From: Opitutia bacterium ISCC 52
GTDB lineage: Bacteria; Verrucomicrobiota; Verrucomicrobiia; Opitutales; UBA2995
Reading direction: 5' to 3'
Assembly (NCBI GenBank): GCA_014529675.2
Contig: CP076040.1
Span: 4,173,894-4,237,893, forward strand
Length of the DNA: 64,000 nucleotides
In this document: positions 1-59,883 of the stretch, piece after piece
How the letters are laid out: each line of letters opens with the position of its first letter
Position numbering within the stretch: the first letter of the stretch is position 1
Made by a program: the position numbers and the translations under genes
The notes under the pieces: generated by a model
What the model saw: the letters and a program-made list of their open reading frames with translations, nothing else
What the model was told of the DNA's origin: nothing
Databases searched by the model: none

Positions 1-227
1 CCCCCGTATACAACCGCGTTGTTACCCGTGATTGCAATGAGGATAGAATTCTTCTCCAAACGTAGCGCGGTTTGGGTAATGGGTTTTTCAATGTCTACGC
101 CTGGTTCTTCTACAAACACAGTCGTGACGATAAAGAAAATTAACAGGATGAATACCATATCAATCATCGGTGAGATGTTGATATCGTTAAGATCCTCTGC
201 AGCGGCTATTGATTTACGTCCTTTCAT
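1..227 (-). CDS. ExbD/TolR-type biopolymer transport protein, set B (partial, 3' end outside window)
   Basis: Proton-channel partner of an ExbB-type motor in the inner membrane. About 75 residues are visible. A short cytoplasmic N-terminus precedes one membrane helix that carries the family's key aspartate in the motif [20 protein letters not shown], and the start of the periplasmic domain follows. The stop codon lies beyond the left edge. Its start is 4 nt after the stop of the ExbB gene at 232-870, so the two are translationally linked. It closely resembles the ExbD at 4703-5119 (same helix and a similar VEE..V linker), so the two are paralogues from the duplication of this locus. Confidence 0.9.
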
Positions 228-231
228 GGAA

Positions 232-870
232 TTAGGCCTCCTGCGTTGATGGAGTTAAAGATCCGTTGGTTGTTTTTTGCGTTTTTTGCAGCATCAAACT
301 CTCTAATCTTACGAGAAAAGCGGAATATTGGTTTCGTTTTTTCTGGATCATGGAAACTAACAAGTATCCAGGAATCGCGATGATCAATCCCGTCTGGGTA
401 GTAATGAGAGCCTCTGAAATACCTTCAGCGACGAGATCAATGGTCTTACCGGATCCACTGGCGAGCCCCTTAAAGGTCGCCAACATACCAATAACAGTTC
501 CCAGCAGCCCCATGAGTGGCGAGACAGTCACGAGGATGTTTAAAAACATAAGGCGGGCATCTACAACGGGGAGTGAAGCACTCGAAATTTCTAAAAATCG
601 ATTCCGAATTTCGTCCGGGTCTCCTTGTCCCTCTTCTTTTACGTAGCTGATTACTTCTCCTACGTGGCCATGTCCTTGTTCAGGATCATCGATCCAAGTT
701 TCATAGGTAGCTTCAGTAATTTTATTATGATTACCTCGCATGAAGAAGAGAATCAACTCCATGGCGGAGAAGAAAATGATAAAGGCCAAGAAAACAAGCG
801 GAATCATGACCCAGCCACCGCTGAACCAGACTGCCGAAATTTCGTCAAATGTTACTCCGAGAACAAACAT
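232..870 (-). CDS. ExbB/TolQ/MotA-family proton channel protein, set B
   Basis: A 212-residue three-helix inner-membrane protein. ExbB pentamers around an ExbD dimer convert proton flow into work on a TonB partner. The first helix lies near residues 18-44. A cytoplasmic loop of about 80 residues follows. Then come the two conserved helices, with the family signature [19 protein letters not shown] and, after it, [23 protein letters not shown]. It sits 12 nt after the larger TtpC-like gene and 4 nt before exbD. It is the only short ExbB in this locus; set A has none. Confidence 0.9.
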
Positions 871-882
871 GTTTTATGCCGA

Positions 883-2286
883 TTAGTTTTTGTGTGGTAA
901 GCCGTTCACAAGTCCAACGGCGGTGCGTTCCATACTCCCGAGAACACCCTTGGACATTCTGGAGAGAAGCGCATGAGCAATCAAAGTGGGTATCGCGATA
1001 ACCAAACCAAATTCGGTAGTGATCAAAGCTTCAGAAATACCCGATGAAAGTTGAGTCGCATCTCCAGTCCCGAAGATGGTGATCAACTTGAAAGTATTAA
1101 TCATACCCGTTACAGTTCCTAGCAGTCCAAGAAGCGGAGCGGTAGCAGCTGTAACAGCGATAAAAGGCAAGAAGCGCTCAAGTTTGGGCTGAGTGCTCAA
1201 CATTCTTTCGTAGAGAATCTCTTCAATAAGATCTTCATCTGAGTCAATGTGCTCCAAAGCAGCGACCAGCATATCACCAACAGGACCTTTAATGCCACGG
1301 GCATAGGCCAAAGCATCATCAGGGCGGTCGCTATTTAAATGCTCCAGGATAACCTCTAAATCTTTGATTTTGCCCTTCTTAACAGAAACAATCTCGAAGA
1401 CTTTGAAAATGGAGATTAAAAAGGCAGCCGCAGCAATGATGAGGATAGGCCACATGACCAAACCACCTTTTTTAATGTGCTCTGGAAGAGACTCCGTTAA
1501 GTTTCTAATGTCGAGTGCCTGGCCTAATTTGACATCCAAGAATAAGGTGCCTTGACCGGTTGTGGTTACATCCGCCATTTCCTTCTCAGGTGCAAAGGGC
1601 TTGGTAAGGATTTTTTCCAATTTTGCGCCGGCGATGTCATTACCAGCAGAGAGAGGGTTGATACTAACTAAACCAGAACTGCTTGCCGAATCGGAAAACA
1701 ATCCAATGGGACCTATAATAGCATAGTTTCCATCAATGATGGTTCCATCAGCCAGTTCGCATTTCCCTTGGAACTTGTATCCACCTACTGATTTAAACAA
1801 GCGATCAAACGAAGTATTAACAGCATCGATTTGAGCTTGGAAACGATCTAAAAGCGGAACTTCACGAACATCTTGAATCTCAATAGCACTGTCAGCCACT
1901 TCTTTATAAAGCTGAACTTCACCCACGTGAATATTCACTCCAATAAATTCCTTAATGTAGTTTCCGAGAGCAGTATGCAAGTAGTCGATCTGGGTCACTA
2001 GCTCCTCAGATCTCGTACCCATCTCGGCCTTCACACGGTTGGCACCGGACGCTTCTTCAACCACTTTGTCACGCTCGATTGTCAATTCGATCTTTTGGTC
2101 TTCCAGATTGTTGATCTCTTTTGCCAATGGAATCTTCCCAGCAGCAATGTCATTTCTTAGCTGGGTCAATTCGGTAAGTGCTCGTTCCAAGTCACCGGCT
2201 GTCGTATTGGCAGCGGTGGTGGCACGATCTTGGGCTGAGAGCGTGAATAGCGGTATCAGCAGACTGATAATAAGAAGCTTTTTCAT
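883..2286 (-). CDS. TtpC-like MotA/TolQ/ExbB protein with periplasmic coiled-coil extension, set B
   Basis: Large ExbB-family protein of 467 residues. A signal-type helix (MKKLLIISLLIPLFTLSAQ) leads a long periplasmic part rich in coiled coil (about residues 30-125). A beta-rich segment follows, then the first conserved membrane helix near 275-300. The ExbB signature helices come last, with APLLGLLGTVTGMINTFKL and SEALITTEFGLVIAIPTLI. In vibrios, TtpC is the accessory ExbB-like subunit of the TonB2 system, and the upstream DUF3450 gene matches that arrangement. The start at 2286 gives a clean signal sequence. An in-frame ATG at 2310 would add eight residues. Neither has a clear ribosome binding site. 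The C-terminal 170 residues are nearly identical in pattern to 5153-6529. Confidence 0.85.
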   Translation of the reverse strand: MKKLLIISLLIPLFTLSAQDRATTAANTTAGDLERALTELTQLRNDIAAGKIPLAKEINNLEDQKIELTIERDKVVEEASGANRVKAEMGTRSEELVTQIDYLHTALGNYIKEFIGVNIHVGEVQLYKEVADSAIEIQDVREVPLLDRFQAQIDAVNTSFDRLFKSVGGYKFQGKCELADGTIIDGNYAIIGPIGLFSDSASSSGLVSINPLSAGNDIAGAKLEKILTKPFAPEKEMADVTTTGQGTLFLDVKLGQALDIRNLTESLPEHIKKGGLVMWPILIIAAAAFLISIFKVFEIVSVKKGKIKDLEVILEHLNSDRPDDALAYARGIKGPVGDMLVAALEHIDSDEDLIEEILYERMLSTQPKLERFLPFIAVTAATAPLLGLLGTVTGMINTFKLITIFGTGDATQLSSGISEALITTEFGLVIAIPTLIAHALLSRMSKGVLGSMERTAVGLVNGLPHKN

Positions 2287-2333
2287 AGAAAGTATTGTTT
2301 TGGAAGTCATTTTTATTCGCCGACTGGGTAGTT

Positions 2334-3116
2334 CTATTCTTGCAGGGATACTGGAACACTAACGAAAAGAGCTGGCTTGCGATTATCCGCCACAAGAATG
2401 GCATCGTTCACTGCCTGAGCAATTTCTGGTCTTTCGATCCATTCCCAGCCTTTACCAACAACGGGATACCCATAACCGGCAGTGGTCATGGCTTCATCAG
2501 AAAAATAAGCTTGTCCGAAGCCTATGTATAGAGTTCGCACCTCAACTGTTTCTCCATTTGCTTCCCGGAGTTCACTACTCAGATTGATCGTTTTATTGAA
2601 GTACTCGACGTTCCTCAATATGGAGAGCACGTTCTGAATGCGTTCTTCTAGAGGTATTTCAACAATTCTGTCCAACGTTGGATCTGGGATGCGGCGCATT
2701 TGCGTAGCCACTTTTTCTATAAATACGGCAGGGAAAACGGAGGATAACTCGATCAACTTAGCTTCAAAGACTGGAACAGCCTTCTCAACGATGGCAATGG
2801 CAGCTTCGTATTCAGTAATTTCAGCTGATAGTTTTTTCTCATTGTCGCCTTGTGAGGAAATATCCTCACGAGCAACAGCGATGGCAGACGTGAGAGATTC
2901 AATCTCTGCCTTCATGAAATCAATACTCTCGTTGAGCGTTTTCTCTTCAGCCATCCATTCGGTTCTCTCCTCAGCAATAATCTGACGAGTTTCAACCCAC
3001 TGCTTTAAGGTTACACGCGCGTTCTCGAGTTCTTCTGCCCCTTGAACTCCGGCCCAGCTACCTAAGAGCGTAATGATCGCGAACAATGGGATTTTAAATT
3101 TTTTAGTGGTGGTCAT
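2334..3116 (-). CDS. DUF3450-family periplasmic coiled-coil protein, set B
   Basis: A 260-residue exported protein. It has an N-terminal signal peptide (hydrophobic to about residue 26, ending GVQGAEE), then a coiled coil over roughly residues 27-120, and a C-terminal domain with the DUF3450 pattern (YIGFGQAYFSDE, then AGYGYP and W.WIERPEI). DUF3450 genes sit directly upstream of ttpC in vibrio TonB2 clusters, as here (gap 47 nt to the TtpC-like start). Its molecular role is not established; a periplasmic partner of the TtpC coiled coil is an inference. It is the paralogue of 6572-7336. Confidence 0.8.
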   Translation of the reverse strand: MTTTKKFKIPLFAIITLLGSWAGVQGAEELENARVTLKQWVETRQIIAEERTEWMAEEKTLNESIDFMKAEIESLTSAIAVAREDISSQGDNEKKLSAEITEYEAAIAIVEKAVPVFEAKLIELSSVFPAVFIEKVATQMRRIPDPTLDRIVEIPLEERIQNVLSILRNVEYFNKTINLSSELREANGETVEVRTLYIGFGQAYFSDEAMTTAGYGYPVVGKGWEWIERPEIAQAVNDAILVADNRKPALFVSVPVSLQE

Positions 3117-3167
3117 TTCTGTGTTTTCCGGGGAAATGGGTTAATACGTAAGGATCGAAAGTAGAAT

Positions 3168-4556
3168 TTAATTAGCGACAGCGCGATAAACATTTCGGGC
3201 AGCGACGAGGTATTCTTCTACTTCGTCTCTTGGATCAATGTTTTGAGCACGCTCCAAAGCACGGATGGATTCGCGGTATTTTTCGTGGGCCATCAGCGCC
3301 TTACCGTAATGGTAAAGAGCCTTGGATTCATAAATGCTGATGCTTTGAGCTCTTTCGTAGAGAAACTCAGCTTTTTCAAAGTCACCGGCCGAAGAATAGT
3401 AATCTGCTAGAAGTATAAGCACTTCTCCATCCAATGGATTTTCAGCCGCCATCTCTTCCAAAGTGGGAATGATGGCGGCAGTAGCCTGCCCCGATTCAGC
3501 CTGAATCTTCGCTTGTAGTTTCCTTACTTCGAAAGACTGTTTGCTATCCAGACTATTGCCGTAGGTCTTTTGAATCTCAGTTAGTACCTCATTGGCAGCA
3601 TCAGTGAACCCTGCTTCAATGAGGGTAGCCGCTGCATCAAGAGGCTTCTCTACATTGAGACGTCCTTGTTTAGAAATAGCATCTTTGTAAGCTCCTAAGG
3701 CTGCTTCAACAAAGTCATTTTCAACATAGATGTCTCCTAAAGCGACCAGGTTTTCTGCTGAAATTTGTCCCAAGCGACGAAGCACTTCATAATTAGAAGC
3801 AGCGGAAAGATTGTCTCCTAGCCCCATGTAGGCATCTGCCTGGAGTCGCCAGTATTCAGCTTGCTCAGGAGCACCTTCGATCAAGCGGTCAAAAAGTCCA
3901 ACCGCATCCTGAAATTTACGCTGATGAAGAATACTTCTAGCGAGTCCGTATTCCCAATCTTCGTTTTCCACTTCATAGATTAAAGCAGAGCGGTAGGATG
4001 TTTCGGCTGCAATATACTGTTCCTTCTCAAAAAAGAGATACGCAAGGATCGCATAAATGTTCTTATCTACAGCGCCCAGTTTCACCGCTTGTGTGAAGTG
4101 GACGAGCGTCTTATCCAAGTTGCCCAACTGGAAATAGAGAAAACCGATATTCTCATGCGCACGGAGGAAATCCTTATGCTTCTTTATGGCATTTTCGTAG
4201 CTCTGAACCGCCTGTTGCAGTTGTCCGTCCTGATAATACATGTTTGCCAGTATCATATCAAACGAGGCGCCGGAATCGGGCAATTGAGTCTTTTCAACCA
4301 ACATTGCTTTTGCGGCAGCTCGATCAGTTTGCAGAACTAACAACAGTTCTTCTTCGATGTAAGTCTTGTCTACCGGAGACACGCGAGGCTCTATGGTTAT
4401 CCGTGGAGCATAGGTTCCAATGAAACGATCGACAAAGTCAGGGTTGTTCCACGGATTGGACTCCGGCACCTGGGCATCGGTGAATGAGAATCCGAGGGCA
4501 CTAAACGCAACCAGAAGGATCGAGAATGGTTTGGATTTTTTAATTTGGCGTAACAT
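3168..4556 (-). CDS. Exported TPR-repeat protein of the TonB2-type locus
   Basis: A 462-residue protein with a signal peptide (hydrophobic stretch about residues 10-28, SILLVAFSALGFSFTDA) and many tetratricopeptide repeats. Clear examples have the pattern A..NIGFLYFQLGNLDKTLVHFTQA and A.LYHYGKALMAHEKYRESIRALE. TPR proteins close the TonB2-type clusters of vibrios and are needed there for uptake by a proposed protein-protein role. It follows a degraded tonB fragment and precedes the set B DUF3450 gene by 51 nt, so it may serve both sets. No enzymatic motif is visible. Confidence 0.8.
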   Translation of the reverse strand: MLRQIKKSKPFSILLVAFSALGFSFTDAQVPESNPWNNPDFVDRFIGTYAPRITIEPRVSPVDKTYIEEELLLVLQTDRAAAKAMLVEKTQLPDSGASFDMILANMYYQDGQLQQAVQSYENAIKKHKDFLRAHENIGFLYFQLGNLDKTLVHFTQAVKLGAVDKNIYAILAYLFFEKEQYIAAETSYRSALIYEVENEDWEYGLARSILHQRKFQDAVGLFDRLIEGAPEQAEYWRLQADAYMGLGDNLSAASNYEVLRRLGQISAENLVALGDIYVENDFVEAALGAYKDAISKQGRLNVEKPLDAAATLIEAGFTDAANEVLTEIQKTYGNSLDSKQSFEVRKLQAKIQAESGQATAAIIPTLEEMAAENPLDGEVLILLADYYSSAGDFEKAEFLYERAQSISIYESKALYHYGKALMAHEKYRESIRALERAQNIDPRDEVEEYLVAARNVYRAVAN

Positions 4557-4568
4557 GTGAACTAAGAG

Positions 4569-4702
4569 TTATCGTCTTGTAGATAAAGAGAGCGGAATAT
4601 GAACCCGAGCTTCACGGCCTTGCTGGCACGCACTCTGGATTTTGATTTCCATTGGTTAGTAGCTTCGAGAGCTGATTTTGTGAAATATTGAGCATAGAGG
4701 AT
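4569..4702 (-). pseudogene. Fossil of a TonB C-terminal domain with a frameshift
   Basis: The gap between exbD (stop 4703-4705) and the TPR gene (start 4556) is not empty. Read on the minus strand directly after the exbD stop, one frame gives a segment ending YFTKSALEATNQWK, which matches the F.+aALEA..+W+ core of TonB C-termini. The overlapping next frame gives IKIQSACQQGREARVHIPL and then SLSTRR and a stop at 4569-4571, matching the W.f.PA...G.p.+v.+.IP..f.l end of the same domain. Adding one A in the A-run at 4646-4648 joins both halves into one reading. Everything upstream of the last ~45 codons is gone. In TonB2-type operons tonB lies exactly here, between exbD and the TPR gene. Confidence 0.65.
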
Positions 4703-5119
4703 TTAGTCAGTGGCAGAAGAAAGGCTGATAATATCGGCTCCCCCTAAACGGGCTTCATCCATAACGCTGACAACGAGTCCAGCATTCGCGGCGTCTTGAG
4801 CCTCCACAACAACGGGAGCTTCAGGGTCAGCAGCGAGTACTTGACTCACTTTGGGGCGAACAGAGCCGAGGGCTACTTTTTCGCCGTTGTAGAAGATCTG
4901 ATTGTTTTTATCTACGCGAATGTTGACGGATTCCTTATCTTCGTCTTGTGGCTCGGGCTGGTCTACAGGATTAGGACGATCAACGCCAAATCCAGACTCC
5001 TCCACAAATACCGTCGTAACGATAAAGAAGATTAAGAGAATGAAAACCATATCAATCATCGGAGAGATGTTGATATCGTTATTGTCGTCGCCGCCTGAAA
5101 GTGATTTGCGATTTCTCAT
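4703..5119 (-). CDS. ExbD/TolR-type biopolymer transport protein, set A
   Basis: A complete ExbD of 138 residues. It has an acidic cytoplasmic N-terminus, a single membrane helix with the proton-relay aspartate ([20 protein letters not shown]), and a periplasmic domain with the usual V.V....I...G..V....V......P..PVVV pattern. It lies 33 nt downstream of the set A TtpC-like gene. No short ExbB gene intervenes, so the TtpC-like protein may be its only ExbB partner unless it shares the set B ExbB. The stop codon is followed in the same frame by the tonB fossil. Confidence 0.92.
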   Translation of the reverse strand: MRNRKSLSGGDDNNDINISPMIDMVFILLIFFIVTTVFVEESGFGVDRPNPVDQPEPQDEDKESVNIRVDKNNQIFYNGEKVALGSVRPKVSQVLAADPEAPVVVEAQDAANAGLVVSVMDEARLGGADIISLSSATD

Positions 5120-5152
5120 GTCTGTGGGAGAACGATTGAGCTGGTTTGCTTA

Positions 5153-6529
5153 TTATTTTCTGCCTGGCAAACCATTGATAAATCCAATCGCGGTTCGTTC
5201 CATACTACTAAGAACACCCTTGGATTTACGTGAGAGCAAGGCATGGAAAATCAGAGACGGAATCGCCACAATCAAACCGAATTGAGTAGTGATTAAAGCT
5301 TCTGAAATACCTGTTGATAGTGATTTTGCATCACCCGTTCCAAAAATGGTAATCAATTTAAAGGTGGTAATCATACCCATTACCGTTCCAAGCAGTCCTA
5401 AAAGAGGTGCAGTCGCAGCGGTAACAGCGATGAAAGGGAGGAAGCGTTCCAGCTTAGGTTGGGCTTCGATCATCTTTTCATAGAGGATTTCCTCTACATG
5501 ATCCTTGTCTTTGTGATGATTGTTAACGGCAGCCGTTAGAAGCGCTCCTACAGGACCTTTAATCTTCTGAGCATATCCTAAGGCTTCATCTTTATTTCCA
5601 TTGTTGAGTGCCTCGATAATGAAAGCCAAGTCCTGAGGACGAGCACGGCGAACACCAGAGATCTCTATAAATTTAAACAGGGCAATCAACAAGGCGATAC
5701 CGGCCATGGTGAGAATAGCGATCATTGCCTTACCACCCTTTTTTACGATCTCAACAAAGGTGTCTTTGGCCTCTTCGATCTGGACCGCGGCACCAAGCGT
5801 CATATCGTAGGGGAGAGATCCAGACCCATTAGAGGAGAACTCTGAAATCAATGGATCGTATAATTCGCCTACGCTACTAACTGAGGGCTGGGCTGAGCCG
5901 AACTCGCGAGAAGCGATACCAGCTACATTGTCTTCAGGGCGGGCGAAATAAACGATGGGGCCCACCATAGTGTATGTGCCTTCCTTAAGACGACCACCGG
6001 GAACAACCCCTTTACCTTGGAACTGGTGACCTCCAACCAAGTTTTCCAATCTACCTATGGCTTGCTCAACTACTTTCAATTGAGTGCTGAAACGATCTGA
6101 AGCAGATAAGTTAATATCTTCAGTAGTAAGTTTGGCGTTTCCAACGCTTTCAGCGTATATCTGGCTTTCACTGATATGAAGGCGATTGTCAAAAGAGCGG
6201 ATATACTCCCCCATCAAACTACTCATATAAGCGTTGGTGTCATCTAGCAAATCAACCTCATTACGGAGGGAGCCAAGATCACGGTCAGTGTTGTCGCGGC
6301 GACGTAAAATACGATCGCGATCAGCGCGGAGGGCGAATGCAGCGTCTTTAAGACGACTTTCTTCAGCCTGAAGCGGTTGGCGTTCAACAACGATTTGTTC
6401 CTTCAAGGCTTCTAACTGCTCAATTGAGGCGTTTAAGTTTGCTTTAACGGAGCCAGAGACCGAATCGAATGTTTGAGCTGAAGCAGCGGAGATCGCACTT
6501 AGCAATAGGATGGAAATTAGTTTTTTCAT
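5153..6529 (-). CDS. TtpC-like MotA/TolQ/ExbB protein with periplasmic coiled-coil extension, set A
   Basis: A 458-residue paralogue of 883-2286 with the same layout. A signal peptide (MKKLISILLLSAISAASAQ) is followed by a periplasmic coiled coil to about residue 115, a G(G/Y).(Q/K)FQGK motif near residue 170, a membrane helix near 265-290 and the ExbB signature helices ([38 protein letters not shown]). The last ~170 residues differ from set B at only scattered positions, while the periplasmic half has diverged much more. It follows DUF3450 set A by 42 nt. Expected role: ExbB-like channel subunit of a TonB2-type motor. Confidence 0.85.
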   Translation of the reverse strand: MKKLISILLLSAISAASAQTFDSVSGSVKANLNASIEQLEALKEQIVVERQPLQAEESRLKDAAFALRADRDRILRRRDNTDRDLGSLRNEVDLLDDTNAYMSSLMGEYIRSFDNRLHISESQIYAESVGNAKLTTEDINLSASDRFSTQLKVVEQAIGRLENLVGGHQFQGKGVVPGGRLKEGTYTMVGPIVYFARPEDNVAGIASREFGSAQPSVSSVGELYDPLISEFSSNGSGSLPYDMTLGAAVQIEEAKDTFVEIVKKGGKAMIAILTMAGIALLIALFKFIEISGVRRARPQDLAFIIEALNNGNKDEALGYAQKIKGPVGALLTAAVNNHHKDKDHVEEILYEKMIEAQPKLERFLPFIAVTAATAPLLGLLGTVMGMITTFKLITIFGTGDAKSLSTGISEALITTQFGLIVAIPSLIFHALLSRKSKGVLSSMERTAIGFINGLPGRK

Positions 6530-6571
6530 GCGGAAATAATTGTAGAGAATTGCTGAGTTCTTCTTGAAATA

Positions 6572-7336
6572 TTATTTAGCGGGTAAGACCACAAATTCAG
6601 CGGGGATTTCACTCTTAAATACACGAATGGCGCGGTCGACGTCTTCGAGGATGGTGGCATCTTCTGTCCAGGTCCACCCCTTCTCAATGTCAACCGTTCC
6701 GTATCCTGCCAGTCCTTGATCTCGGTTCGCATAATACGCACGACCAAGTCCGATGTAGATCACGTTTAAGCTAACCGTGCTACTACCGACTTTTCTGGCT
6801 TCGGTAAATACGTGGATTCCATTATTGAAAACCTCCATTTGGTCGAGAAGACCCACAATGTTTAGCATGCGCTCTCCCAAGCTAGCCCGAATCTCGCTTT
6901 CTGGCGTGTTCCGATCAGGAATGCGGTTGGTCAGACTTTCCAGGTCACTTTTCTTCTCCTGGGGGAGTGCATTGGCGAGCTTGGTTACGCGTTGTTCATA
7001 CCCACGAATAACAGTAGCTACTACTGCAGATGCTTCTTTAAGTTCCTCGATCTGCCCGTTCAAGCTGATCCGGTCCTTTTCGGCCTGCGTAGATTGCGCT
7101 TCCATCTCTTCAATCCCGACTTCCAAAAGCTCGATCTCGAGTTCTAGCAACTCGACAGCATCGAGTAAGGATTGCTTCTGGATGCGCCAACGCGATTGTT
7201 CATTGGCTATTTCCTGGCGGGACTGAACGAGTTCCTGGAAAATATTCCGAGTTTCTTCTAGTTTGGACTGCCCCCAGCTCAGGGTTGTGAGGCCTACTAG
7301 GGCAACTGATGCGATCGCAAGTAATCTCTTGGTCAT
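6572..7336 (-). CDS. DUF3450-family periplasmic coiled-coil protein, set A
   Basis: A 254-residue exported protein and first gene of the duplicated locus. The start at 7336 is chosen because it yields a good signal peptide (MTKRLLAIASVALVGLTTLS ending in WGQS). An upstream ATG at 7459 would prepend 41 residues with no signal-like character. A coiled coil spans about residues 25-110. The C-terminal DUF3450 pattern is present (YIGLGRAYYANRD, LAGYGTVDIEKGW). It is clearly related to 2334-3116. No Shine-Dalgarno site is visible; the promoter should lie in 7337-7500 but no convincing -35/-10 pair was found. Confidence 0.8.
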   Translation of the reverse strand: MTKRLLAIASVALVGLTTLSWGQSKLEETRNIFQELVQSRQEIANEQSRWRIQKQSLLDAVELLELEIELLEVGIEEMEAQSTQAEKDRISLNGQIEELKEASAVVATVIRGYEQRVTKLANALPQEKKSDLESLTNRIPDRNTPESEIRASLGERMLNIVGLLDQMEVFNNGIHVFTEARKVGSSTVSLNVIYIGLGRAYYANRDQGLAGYGTVDIEKGWTWTEDATILEDVDRAIRVFKSEIPAEFVVLPAK

Positions 7337-55420: not shown

Positions 55421-56167
55421 TCAAAGCCCGATTCTAATGTATAAATATCCGGTGGTTCCCACAAGGAGTGGATGGACCCTTTCCAGGATAAAATCGCGGA
55501 CGAAATCGTCCGTTATTTCGCTGCCACTTGGGTTGACCAATAAGGGATTCCCTGCGAGCCCGTAGTCGGTGATTGAAATGGAGAATTCGGCGGGATTGAG
55601 CGGGAATTCAACGGGTTGCTCTGAATCAAATCCAATGAAAGTATTGAGCACTGGTTTCCCCAGGGAAGTTTTTGCCTCTACGTACAACCCAAGAGGTCGT
55701 GTTTCGACCTTCACTCGTGTTTCGGTGGCAAACTCAGAAACAAAATCCCGAGATACTGGCTGTAAGAGCTCCAAAGCAGTTCCTGCACCTGGGTTGAGCT
55801 CGCTGTCTAGCAATAGAAGAGAATCGTCCCAGCGGATGTCGGCCGGGAAAGAAGCTGCCAACTGCACTTCAGGTTCCCAAATACTGGCGTCCGTCTTGAT
55901 TGGGCCGGAGTAATTGCGGTCTGTGGGCAAAAAGATGGGTTCAGAATCGAACAAATAAGCTTGTTGCTCCAATTTATCACTCTCCATGGGGAATCCTTCA
56001 GGTTGGAATACCACAAAACTCTTTTCTGCTAAGCGATTGGCTGGCTCATCCAAGTCCCAGTTAAAAAGATAGAAGGCCCCGGCGTGAACGACCACTGCCA
56101 CGATGACAAAAACAAATACCCAGCGTTTGTAGCCAGGGTGCTTTTGAATCTCCTCCTTCTTGCTCAT
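55421..56167 (-). CDS. TonB-like envelope protein of the right Exb locus
   Basis: A 248-residue protein with a short basic N-terminus and one membrane helix at about residues 15-35 (RWVFVFVIVAVVVHAGAFYL), then a periplasmic part. Its C-terminus (PSGSEITDDFVRDFILERVH, then PLLVGTTGYLYIRIGL) has the length and pattern of a TonB C-terminal domain. A Pro-rich spanning region is missing. It follows exbD with an ATGA overlap, the position of tonB in such operons. Energy transducer is therefore a context-based call. No close family recognised. Confidence 0.55.
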   Translation of the reverse strand: MSKKEEIQKHPGYKRWVFVFVIVAVVVHAGAFYLFNWDLDEPANRLAEKSFVVFQPEGFPMESDKLEQQAYLFDSEPIFLPTDRNYSGPIKTDASIWEPEVQLAASFPADIRWDDSLLLLDSELNPGAGTALELLQPVSRDFVSEFATETRVKVETRPLGLYVEAKTSLGKPVLNTFIGFDSEQPVEFPLNPAEFSISITDYGLAGNPLLVNPSGSEITDDFVRDFILERVHPLLVGTTGYLYIRIGL

Positions 56168-56607
56168 TGAAACGTCGGTAGATCTATTGCCTCTTTCTCG
56201 CCCGCAACATGGACCTTGGAAAAGCCAGCTTTTTTAGCCTCCCCACTGATTTGGAAGAAGGTGTCCATTTTAATGTCAGGATCAAGACGTAGGAGCAAAA
56301 CTGCGTTTTCCTTTCCTTGAAGGTACTCGCGCGCTTTTTCCTCAAATTGGTTTAGTTTCAGATTTTGCCCCTCAAACAGTAACATGTTGTCACGTTTCAC
56401 GGTGAGCACCGACGTAACGTTGATACCGCTAACCAGGCTTTCGTTGACCTCGAAATCTATCACAACTCCCTTGGGGACCACAAAGGGAGAGCTGAAGATT
56501 CCAAAAAACACAACAATGACCAGAATATCTATGATAGGTACCACCTCGAGGTCGGACTTGGGCTTGGTACGAATGAATCGTTCCAGTTCAAGCGGTTGGC
56601 TAAGCAT
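56164..56607 (-). CDS. ExbD/TolR-like protein, right locus
   Basis: 147 residues from the start at 56607, which overlaps the exbB stop by 8 nt. A longer start at 56637 would lie deep in exbB. One membrane helix with the channel aspartate (VVPIIDILVIVVFFGIFSS) precedes a periplasmic domain. It has diverged from both left-locus ExbD proteins (IIDILV instead of MIDMVF), so it belongs to a different Exb lineage. Confidence 0.85.
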   Translation of the reverse strand: MLSQPLELERFIRTKPKSDLEVVPIIDILVIVVFFGIFSSPFVVPKGVVIDFEVNESLVSGINVTSVLTVKRDNMLLFEGQNLKLNQFEEKAREYLQGKENAVLLLRLDPDIKMDTFFQISGEAKKAGFSKVHVAGEKEAIDLPTFQ

Positions 56608-57274
56608 CTTTTTGCCCCTCCTTCGCTGGTGCCGCACCTGCCTCGGCTTCTCGCAAATCTCGCATGAGGAATTTCAACATTTCGTTTCCGGTCCACTCCA
56701 TATCGCGGACTAAGGCGCGTACACGGCCATGTAGGAAGTGAAACCCAATAAAGGCGAGTACCGCTATAGCCAGTCCACACGCCGTTGTAATGAGGGACTG
56801 CCACATCCCATTGGATAGAACAGTCGCATCTGAGTAATTACCTGACTGTTCCATATCATAGAAGGTTTGAGCCAAGCCGAGCACCGTACCCAATAAACCC
56901 ACTAATGGAGCTGATTTTGCCAGGGCAGCCAAGGTGCCGAGTCTTTTCTCCAGAACAGGAATCTCAACCAAAGCCGCTTCTTGGATTTCGTAGCGTATTT
57001 TTTCTTCGTCCTCCCCATAGTGAAGGAGACTAGCTTTGACCAGGCTTGGAACCGGCCCAGGCGTTTCCTCACAAAGAGTCAGCGCTTCCACCAATCGTTG
57101 TTTCCGTACGATATTCTTAATACCGGTTACAAACTCGGAGGAACGTATCTGACCACGGTGCAGAAATAACACCCGCTCAATAAAGATCAGAAAGCAGACC
57201 AGGCTCATCAACAAGAGGACCCACATCATCGGCCCTCCTTTTTCCAATAAACTTAGATCTATTCCTTCCATCAT
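56600..57274 (-). CDS. ExbB/TolQ-like proton channel, right locus
   Basis: 224 residues with three helices: the first at about 16-36 (MMWVLLLMSLVCFLIFIERV), then the signature APLVGLLGTVLGLAQTFYDM near 123-142 and SLITTACGLAIAVLAFIGFH near 165-184. It overlaps the upstream TPR gene by 4 nt (ATGA) and exbD by 8 nt, giving a tightly coupled TPR-exbB-exbD-tonB-like operon. Confidence 0.9.
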   Translation of the reverse strand: MMEGIDLSLLEKGGPMMWVLLLMSLVCFLIFIERVLFLHRGQIRSSEFVTGIKNIVRKQRLVEALTLCEETPGPVPSLVKASLLHYGEDEEKIRYEIQEAALVEIPVLEKRLGTLAALAKSAPLVGLLGTVLGLAQTFYDMEQSGNYSDATVLSNGMWQSLITTACGLAIAVLAFIGFHFLHGRVRALVRDMEWTGNEMLKFLMRDLREAEAGAAPAKEGQKDA

Positions 57275-59883
57275 TTAACCCTTTTCTGAGCCAATCGGCT
57301 CAATTTACCCTCCGCAAGACTATTGAAAGGGAGTCCAAACTCCTGGATATAGGAGTAAACACGACGAGCAGCGTCAACGTCACCCTGCTCTTCCAAGACC
57401 TCACCTAATGAAATAACAATTTTTGACATCCAGTATCGCCCAGTAGGTCCAAGCAAGTCGGACTGATCGGCATCGAGAAGAAACTGGTTAATGGCCAACC
57501 AATAGATTTCGACGACGCGATCAGGATTGCTTCGACGATCATAAGAAAATGCCCACATCCAACTCGCCTCTACTCGTAAATCAATCGGAAGCTCTGGTAG
57601 CTCAGCCAATCGCTCAAAACGTCCAATCGCCTGGTCAAGGCGCGCTTGGGAGGTATCAGTCTGGGCCAAAATGCATTTGGCCTGAGCCATCTCAACAATG
57701 TGCTTATCTTTGTGCTGCGGGAAATCCACCAACAATCGGTCGTAGACCACTTCCGCACCCCCAAAGTCGTTAAAGCGGCGAAGTAGGTTCCCCTGGTGAA
57801 GACGGCTGTAGAATACAAGCGGATGCTCGGCATGTTCCTCGGCTAAGCGATTGAGGATTTGATTCGCTTCCAGACGAGTCGCATCCGTTCCACGATTCAA
57901 AGCATTCAGAGCAGCTTCATAAAGCGCAACGGGTGTGAGTTCGCTCCCAGGGTAATTGTCCGCAAGCTCGATGTATCGCCGTTGGGCCTCTACCAGGAGA
58001 TTTTGCGATGCATAATATCTCGCTTCAGCCAAATAGCTCTGGGCCGCAGCCCGCGTACTTGGATAGTCACTGCGAACCGTCTCCATCAATTCCAATCCCT
58101 CTTCCTGCCGACCTGCAAAGATAAGCGCTTGCCCTTCCAGAATATTGGTAAGCGTCGAAACATCGATTCCCGTAGCCGGATCGATCGCTCCCTCGGCTGC
58201 CGTTAATCCAGCATACACTTCTCCAGCGAGAATGGGGGTCGCCTGGTAGTTTCCAGTCTGGAGAGATAATTGGCACCGGAACCAAAGCAGACGAATCCAC
58301 AGATCCACTGGCAGCAAGTCTCTGGCATCTTGAGTCAACCAGGAGTTGAGCACGTCGAATGCTTTATCTTGTTCTCCGGCAGAATGCAGGGCTGTCAGGT
58401 AATTCCAGAGTGCTCGCCATTTCTGAACAGGATCCAAGCTTCCATCCGTTTTGAAACTCTCCATGTGCCTGCCAGCCTCCTCTAGATTACCGGCACGAAT
58501 CTCGGAAAGCACCCATTGAAACAAAATCCCACCGCGATTCGCACCTACTTGCTGAATAGCAATACCATAGGATTCAGCGGCATCTCCGTAGTCACCCGCT
58601 TGAAAAAAGCAATCAGCCACCAACAACTGGAGCTGGTTCTGTTCATCTGGGTCGACAACCAGATTGCTCAATTCAATTAAAAGACCCGATGCGGTGCGAT
58701 ATCGCTGCCGCTGGAATGCGATGAGCACCAACAAGCGAGTTGCCGACTCCCGAAGTTCTACATCGGGATTTCGCTGGAGCAATGCCTCACAATCCGTTCC
58801 TGAAGCCTCATAGTCACCTTTCCTGTACAATAATTGGGCTCTATTATAAAAGATCTGATTGGCCAACTCCTGCGGAAACTGTCCTTGGTCCAGGGTATCA
58901 GTAAAATTGAGGAAGTAATCGATCTCTTCAACCGAAGACGCCACGGATACCAACTCTCTCAGGGCCCGCAAACGAAGTTCTGTCACAACGCCCACAGAAA
59001 CCAGATCTCTGAAGGCATCCGCACCAATCGTCGAGTCGTAGCCAGCTATAATTCCAAGGAGTAACAACAACTCGTCCCTTAAATCATAGTTGGCCTCACT
59101 TATACCAGGAAGGGTTTGTGTGATGGCCTGAGTCGCTTCGGAAAATCGATCCGACAAATAAAGCGCTATGACATACTCCTTGGTAAACTGGTATCCAGCT
59201 CGAATGTTTGAAGCCAAACCTTCATCCATTTTCGTTTTCAGATCCTCCAGATCATCCTCATCGAGAATATCACCATTCAGCAGGAGGCTCCTATATATAA
59301 TCAGGTCGACCTGGGAGCTTTGTTCAGGGGAAACAGATAGTAGGCGAGCCCGGTTCAGCAGAGAATCACCCTCTTCATTCTCCGATCTCTTTTCAATGAG
59401 GCCTAAAAGCAAATAATACCAGGCCAAGTCATACTCCTTTAGATCTTCAATGGTTATCTCCTCAAGGCCATCCTCGGCATCTTCGAAGTTACTATTGAAA
59501 AAGCTTACCAATGCCTGCCTTAAGGTTACCCTGGAATCCACATTGCCTTGGAAACTGGAGAGGGCTTGCTCCGCATCCTCCATCCGCCCCAAAGCGATAA
59601 AGGATGAGATTCGATTGAGCTCCATCTCATGGGTCCGGGGATCCTCTCCGTCAGCCCCAACCAAGAGCTGATCATAAAGCCCAATAGCAATGGAGGCCAG
59701 ACCTGACCTCAAGGCATTGTCTGCAGCCGCTTCCTGCCAAAGGCGTAAATTACCTGCTCGTTCAGCTCCTAAGTCTTTCTCCTCCACCAAAGGCACAGGC
59801 GTCATGAGCGGGTCCTGATTCTGCCCGAATAAAGTCAGCCATACCTGACTTAAAAAGCAGGCCACCAAAAGGACACGTTTCAT
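57271..59883 (-). CDS. Large exported TPR-repeat protein
   Basis: 870 residues with a signal peptide (MKRVLLVACFLSQVWLTLFG) and a long helical-repeat body. TPR-like units are visible at several points, for example AESYGIAIQQVGANRGGILF, ARYYASQNLLVEAQRRYIEL and VYDRLLVDFPQHKDKHIVEM. It resembles YbgF/CpoB-type and other periplasmic TPR scaffolds that accompany Tol/Exb motors, but is much longer. It is translationally coupled to exbB. Likely a periplasmic or outer-membrane partner of the motor; the substrate is unknown. Confidence 0.7.
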   Translation of the reverse strand: MKRVLLVACFLSQVWLTLFGQNQDPLMTPVPLVEEKDLGAERAGNLRLWQEAAADNALRSGLASIAIGLYDQLLVGADGEDPRTHEMELNRISSFIALGRMEDAEQALSSFQGNVDSRVTLRQALVSFFNSNFEDAEDGLEEITIEDLKEYDLAWYYLLLGLIEKRSENEEGDSLLNRARLLSVSPEQSSQVDLIIYRSLLLNGDILDEDDLEDLKTKMDEGLASNIRAGYQFTKEYVIALYLSDRFSEATQAITQTLPGISEANYDLRDELLLLLGIIAGYDSTIGADAFRDLVSVGVVTELRLRALRELVSVASSVEEIDYFLNFTDTLDQGQFPQELANQIFYNRAQLLYRKGDYEASGTDCEALLQRNPDVELRESATRLLVLIAFQRQRYRTASGLLIELSNLVVDPDEQNQLQLLVADCFFQAGDYGDAAESYGIAIQQVGANRGGILFQWVLSEIRAGNLEEAGRHMESFKTDGSLDPVQKWRALWNYLTALHSAGEQDKAFDVLNSWLTQDARDLLPVDLWIRLLWFRCQLSLQTGNYQATPILAGEVYAGLTAAEGAIDPATGIDVSTLTNILEGQALIFAGRQEEGLELMETVRSDYPSTRAAAQSYLAEARYYASQNLLVEAQRRYIELADNYPGSELTPVALYEAALNALNRGTDATRLEANQILNRLAEEHAEHPLVFYSRLHQGNLLRRFNDFGGAEVVYDRLLVDFPQHKDKHIVEMAQAKCILAQTDTSQARLDQAIGRFERLAELPELPIDLRVEASWMWAFSYDRRSNPDRVVEIYWLAINQFLLDADQSDLLGPTGRYWMSKIVISLGEVLEEQGDVDAARRVYSYIQEFGLPFNSLAEGKLSRLAQKRVK

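Follow-up and report, generated by a model that had tools for sequence, protein, structure and literature searches.

The locus and its two motor operons

The window analysed here is a stretch of 64,000 bases (4173894-4237893) from a single-contig 4.8 Mb genome, coded G000 among its relatives. At its start lie two motor operons, here called set A and set B, with set B directly downstream of set A and in the same direction. The features are as follows, in window positions.

6572-7336, minus strand: set A DUF3450 protein, TtpB-like (PF11932, E = 2.3e-25)
5153-6529, minus strand: set A ExbB/TtpC-like proton channel (PF01618, E = 9.4e-32)
4703-5119, minus strand: set A ExbD, intact, with a TAA stop (PF02472, E = 9.7e-27; dN/dS 0.035 against G005)
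4702-4557, minus strand: 146-base gap separating exbD from the TPR gene, holding the tonB remnant
4685-4702, minus strand: candidate piece of the old exbD-tonB spacer and leader, ATCCTCTATGCTCAATAT; the large deletion would end near its 3' side
4610-4684, minus strand: tonB remnant part 1, 25 codons reading FTKSALEATNQWKSKSRVRASKAVK in the exbD frame (frameshift-tolerant profile alignment; Pfam TonB_C match together with part 2)
4608-4609, minus strand: point at which the TonB reading changes frame, common to the sister species G005
4569-4607, minus strand: tonB remnant part 2, RVHIPLSLSTRR and the old tonB stop codon (4571-4569)
4557-4580, minus strand: old tonB end and TPR start region, AGACGATAACTCTTAGTTCAC before the ATG, the final 21 bases being the same in four species
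3168-4556, minus strand: set A TPR protein, TtpD-like (TPR families; dN/dS 0.049 against G005)
1-3116, minus strand: set B DUF3450, ExbB/TtpC, second ExbB and ExbD

Set B continues just beyond the window edge with an intact tonB (L018:7030-7686) and a TPR gene (5631-7022), both on the minus strand, and holds the complete TonB2-type (Ttp) order DUF3450-TtpC-exbB-exbD-tonB-TPR. Set A departs from this order in having neither a small exbB nor an intact tonB: it carries one TtpC-like ExbB of 458 residues where set B has two ExbB proteins of 475 and 212 residues (window 232-6529), and the small ExbB of TonB2-type operons is missing from set A in all family members examined. The exbB, exbD and TPR genes of set A nevertheless give dN/dS values of 0.035-0.049, low enough to indicate a motor in use. 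Genome-wide, there are 12 TonB-dependent receptor barrel matches and 17 TonB_C matches.

A third motor cluster lies on the minus strand at window positions 55421-59883, with a TPR protein (59883-57271), a MotA/TolQ/ExbB-like protein (57274-56600) and an ExbD-like protein (56637-56164). The place of TonB is occupied there by a 248-residue protein (56167-55421) with one N-terminal membrane helix, in which a TonB C-terminus is not obvious by eye.

The gap holds the end of a tonB gene

A preliminary description of this DNA had reported two frame pieces after exbD, and both are present as written, ILYAQYFTKSALEATNQWKSKSRVRASKAVK... in the exbD frame and ...IKIQSACQQGREARVHIPLSLSTRR with its stop in the next. 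Their resemblance to a TonB C-terminus, also proposed there, is borne out by a profile of the last 62 TonB columns, built only from other families of the order and aligned to the gap with frame changes allowed. The gap scores 30.7 bits, against a mean of 10.4 (s.d. 1.6) and a maximum of 19.7 bits over 5000 dinucleotide shuffles of the same bases. The alignment path follows FTKSALEATNQWKSKSRVRASKAVK, changes frame, and then follows RVHIPLSLSTRR to the stop; the final few residues align only if the profile also includes the family's own TonBs. In G005 the gap reads FTKSALEATNQWKPKPRKHAGKAVK, then RVHIPLSLSIRR, and its profile score is higher than that of G000.

Other comparisons gave lower scores. 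With the two parts joined at the late frame change, the G000 peptide matches Pfam TonB_C (PF03544) over profile positions 43-75 at 13.1 bits (E = 0.14), and the G005 remnant matches the same positions at 19.7 bits (E = 0.0012); neither reaches the curated cut-off of 24.6 bits, as expected for a 38-codon fragment. NCBIfam returned no match for the G000 remnant and TIGR01352 at E = 0.0039 for that of G005. At the DNA level, the remnant, trimmed of its final 25 bases, resembles the intact G004 gene only marginally, with 4 of 1000 shuffles equally good. As the Pfam match in G000 is weak when taken alone, the case is carried by the relatives and the shuffles, and, given the marginal DNA comparison, by the protein-level test and the common 3' end.

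The relatives are informative here. In G004, a member of the same genus, the same gap holds an intact tonB of 217 residues (L083:2065-2718); the preliminary description had placed the remnant at the tonB position of a TonB2-type operon and suggested looking for an intact copy in precisely this intergenic region. The last tonB bases, AGACGATAACTCTTAGTTCACATG, are identical in G000, G005, G001 and G004, and the final two codons of the remnant with its stop (AGACGATAA) are the same letters in the intact G004 gene. On the 5' side, ATGCTCAAT within the 4685-4702 piece would have its counterparts in ATGATCAAT (intact G004 leader) and ATGCTCA (G001 scar), a correspondence that is weak on its own owing to its shortness. 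A DNA search of the family for a second copy of the remnant returned the homologous gaps only.

Similarity to TonB above chance, an intact copy in place in G004, a broken frame, and the disappearance of the start and the bulk of the gene (about 38 of 217 codons, at its end, are left) together have the marks of a pseudogene. Judged by its sequence, the gap is the fossil of a tonB that once stood between exbD and the TPR gene. That it is unrelated non-coding DNA with a chance similarity, for which the shortness of the stretch and the weak Pfam score might speak, can be discarded, since none of the 5000 shuffles reaches the score and G004 has an intact tonB in the same place with identical final bases.

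Selection on the remnant

Between G000 and G005 the remnant has diverged by 7.5%, within the 3.9-8.7% of the other operon spacers, and the 25 TonB-like codons in the exbD frame differ by six amino-acid-changing substitutions and one silent one, on few sites. By this spacer-like divergence and the 6:1 ratio, constraint on the encoded residues appears to be absent, with the proviso of few sites, and as a protein the scar most likely does nothing.

This bears on the earlier suggestion that exbD might be read past its stop, or fused to the remnant, so that some ExbD molecules would gain a TonB-like tail. In G000 the exbD frame does stay open almost as far as the TPR gene, 47 codons beyond its stop; in G005 it is open for 41. 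However, both species have TAA as the stop, their extensions are of unequal length and end out of the TonB frame, and six of the seven differences in the TonB-like codons alter the residue, whereas exbD itself is strongly constrained. Such a tail would moreover be missing the greater part of the TonB domain and would come after a periplasmic one, and we regard readthrough as very improbable.

The 3' end has fared differently. The 21 bases before the TPR start, including the last old tonB codons, are identical in four species, which suggests constraint given that synonymous sites are saturated between G000 and two of these species, G001 and G004. We infer that the TPR gene has its start region in these bases, and this would account for the survival of the 3' part of tonB.

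Position of the frame change

The preliminary description had placed the break in the A-run at 4646-4648, and had allowed for a read error there. The best alignment instead keeps the exbD frame through WKSKSRVRASKAVK and shifts at about 4609-4608, where a nucleotide alignment with the intact G004 gene also places the change. When both joins are scored without gaps on the TonB profile, the late one reaches 36.6 bits and the A-run one 13.8, and the A-run-joined peptide has no TonB family match in Pfam, only a sub-threshold match to DUF3319. As G005, an independent assembly, carries the same frame change, it was inherited; with two assemblies in agreement, the idea of a sequencing error was dropped.

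A further element of that account, the loss by set A of its own TonB, holds for the operon, where none is left; it does not extend to the genome, which retains a solo TonB of the same subfamily about 0.7 Mb away, out of sight of a reader of the window. The combined reading, in which the break lies in the A-run, may stem from a sequencing error and leaves set A with no TonB to itself, has in its favour that both frame pieces exist and that the net frame change is equal. Against this stand the refuted break position, the frame change in G005 and the solo TonB, and the account as a whole is highly unlikely.

Repeated loss of the operon tonB

Eight genomes of the family were searched. The relatives are draft metagenome assemblies of Opitutales (Verrucomicrobiota), in which the absence of a gene may be an assembly gap. 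They can be arranged in a series: intact tonB (G004), leader and tail (G001), tail (G000 and G005, which share the same scar), and clean loss (G003, G006 and G007). The G001 scar differs from that of G000 in that the tonB leader and about nine first codons are joined to the last seven or so, and its leader matches that of G004 with a score of 29 (shuffle maximum 16). In G003 and G006, exbD and the TPR gene nearly abut, and in G007 tonB is absent from its place between them; set A was not found in the 75% complete assembly of G002. A tree built from the set A proteins pairs G001 with G004 as sisters (100/100). Unless G004 regained the gene, tonB was therefore lost in G001 independently of the loss in G000 and G005. 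The operon tonB has been lost several times within the family.

Beyond the family, of the 23 outgroup loci fetched from the order, 22 have tonB immediately upstream of the TPR gene; at the remaining locus the contig begins inside tonB. With this arrangement across the order, tonB is old and its loss recent. Plasmid records queried with set A ExbD contained only distant relatives, with less than 60% identity.

Several other tonB genes deserve a mention. G004 has a second set A-type tonB (L082:6488-7240, contig C614) with an in-frame TAG and without the common leader, which is either one more duplicate in decay or an artefact of assembly. G010, from a different family, carries two tandem tonB genes immediately upstream of the TPR gene (L045). 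In the draft genome G020, the tonB that precedes the TPR gene is spread across two frames (L046:682-1384) and may be a further case of a tonB breaking at its original site.

A solo TonB of the same subfamily

The solo TonB gene lies at 3450341-3450988 (3.45 Mb), between an enolase-superfamily gene and a short-chain dehydrogenase gene. It forms one clade with its counterparts in G005 and G001 and with the operon TonB of G004 (100/97), and this set A subfamily is sister to the set B TonBs (100/99). Its dN/dS of 0.058 indicates purifying selection.

The upstream sequence points the same way. The leader of the solo gene, GTTACCCCATGGTCAATCCCAACTTATTGAACATGGAA (in short GTTACCCCATGGTCAAT...TATTGAACATGGAA), matches the exbD-tonB spacer of G004 with a score of 22, where the maximum of 2000 shuffles is 15; the leader of the G001 solo tonB matches as well (18, maximum 15). 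No leader similarity was found for the set B tonB, and a search for a 3' flank common to the operon copy and the solo copy found none. Grouping with the operon tonB rather than with set B, together with a 38-base leader that none of the 2000 shuffles matches, identifies the solo gene as a relocated duplicate: an operon copy that departed with its leader. In G001 the leader sequence is found at both places, which argues for copying first and operon loss later. A solo copy with this leader was not found in the 88% complete assembly of G004, and G004 and the other species may represent opposite outcomes of one duplication.

The conserved leader (L083:2027-2064; L019:9990-10030; L080, before the solo start) contains a short frame that begins ATG(A/G)TCAAT and runs into the tonB start; this frame possibly serves coupled translation.

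A proposed history, and the TonB that serves set A

Very probably, then, the operon tonB was copied away, and the old copy was then deleted and decayed. The genus ancestor would have had set A in the order DUF3450 - ExbB/TtpC - ExbD - TonB - TPR, as G004 has today, and tonB with some 38 bases of leader would have been copied to another place on the chromosome. The order of the losses we infer as follows: in the line of G000 and G005, one deletion would have taken away about five sixths of the operon tonB, counted from its start, and the remaining piece would additionally have changed frame. The leftover would be non-coding filler, its 3' end kept for carrying the TPR start region. The set A motor is still kept up, and its coupling to the outer membrane most likely runs through the relocated solo TonB, possibly also through the set B TonB.

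Which TonB, then, would now serve set A? The solo TonB is the probable partner, and the physical or genetic link between the two is putative; the gene is about 0.7 Mb away, with neighbours of other roles. The main rival arm is the set B TonB, with the solo TonB serving something else. G003, G006 and G007 have set A and an intact set B TonB, and a TonB of the set A subfamily was not found in them, which suggests that set A can persist without one; set B also lies immediately downstream of set A, in the same direction. On the other hand, in G000 the solo TonB is more closely related to the lost protein than the set B TonB is, and it is under selection, and the ExbD proteins of the two sets are only 48% identical. 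Sharing of the set B TonB is thus possible, and the less likely arrangement. More doubtful still, no TonB at all may serve set A, which would then be a motor without need of one, passing the energy of ExbB-ExbD on via its DUF3450 and TPR partners. If true, this would explain repeated tonB loss in one family despite strong selection on the remaining operon.

If the solo TonB is the partner, as we favour, its common origin with the operon copy offers a testable pairing of TonB and motor. More broadly, related species here show the stepwise loss of the energy-transducing arm of a motor operon, the remainder of which is still under selection, and annotators may take from this that an exbB-exbD operon without tonB is not necessarily incomplete.

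Comparison with known systems

The TonB2 and TonB3 operons of Vibrio have the order ttpB-ttpC-exbB-exbD-tonB-ttpD, with ttpB2 (DUF3450) first and ttpD2 (TPR) after tonB2 (PMC6957404). Set A resembles the TonB2 operon in its leading DUF3450 gene, its TtpC-like ExbB, its ExbD and its closing TPR gene, and the scar lies exactly at the place of tonB2; unlike it, set A is without the second, small exbB, its tonB is dead, and a TonB would be needed from elsewhere. HasB of Serratia marcescens (PMC3602595) is one known example of a solo TonB encoded apart from exbB-exbD. As with HasB, our solo tonB is remote from any exbB-exbD pair and belongs to a genome that has several tonB genes; HasB, however, shares an operon with its receptor, whereas the solo tonB sits elsewhere and carries the leader of its source operon. 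In principle the present case is no different from gene relocation in which a duplicate arises and the old copy is lost: there is a copy elsewhere, a scar left behind, and a difference between sister species, G004 having kept the operon copy. The scar is ordinary gene erosion, an unusually clear and well-documented example of known processes.
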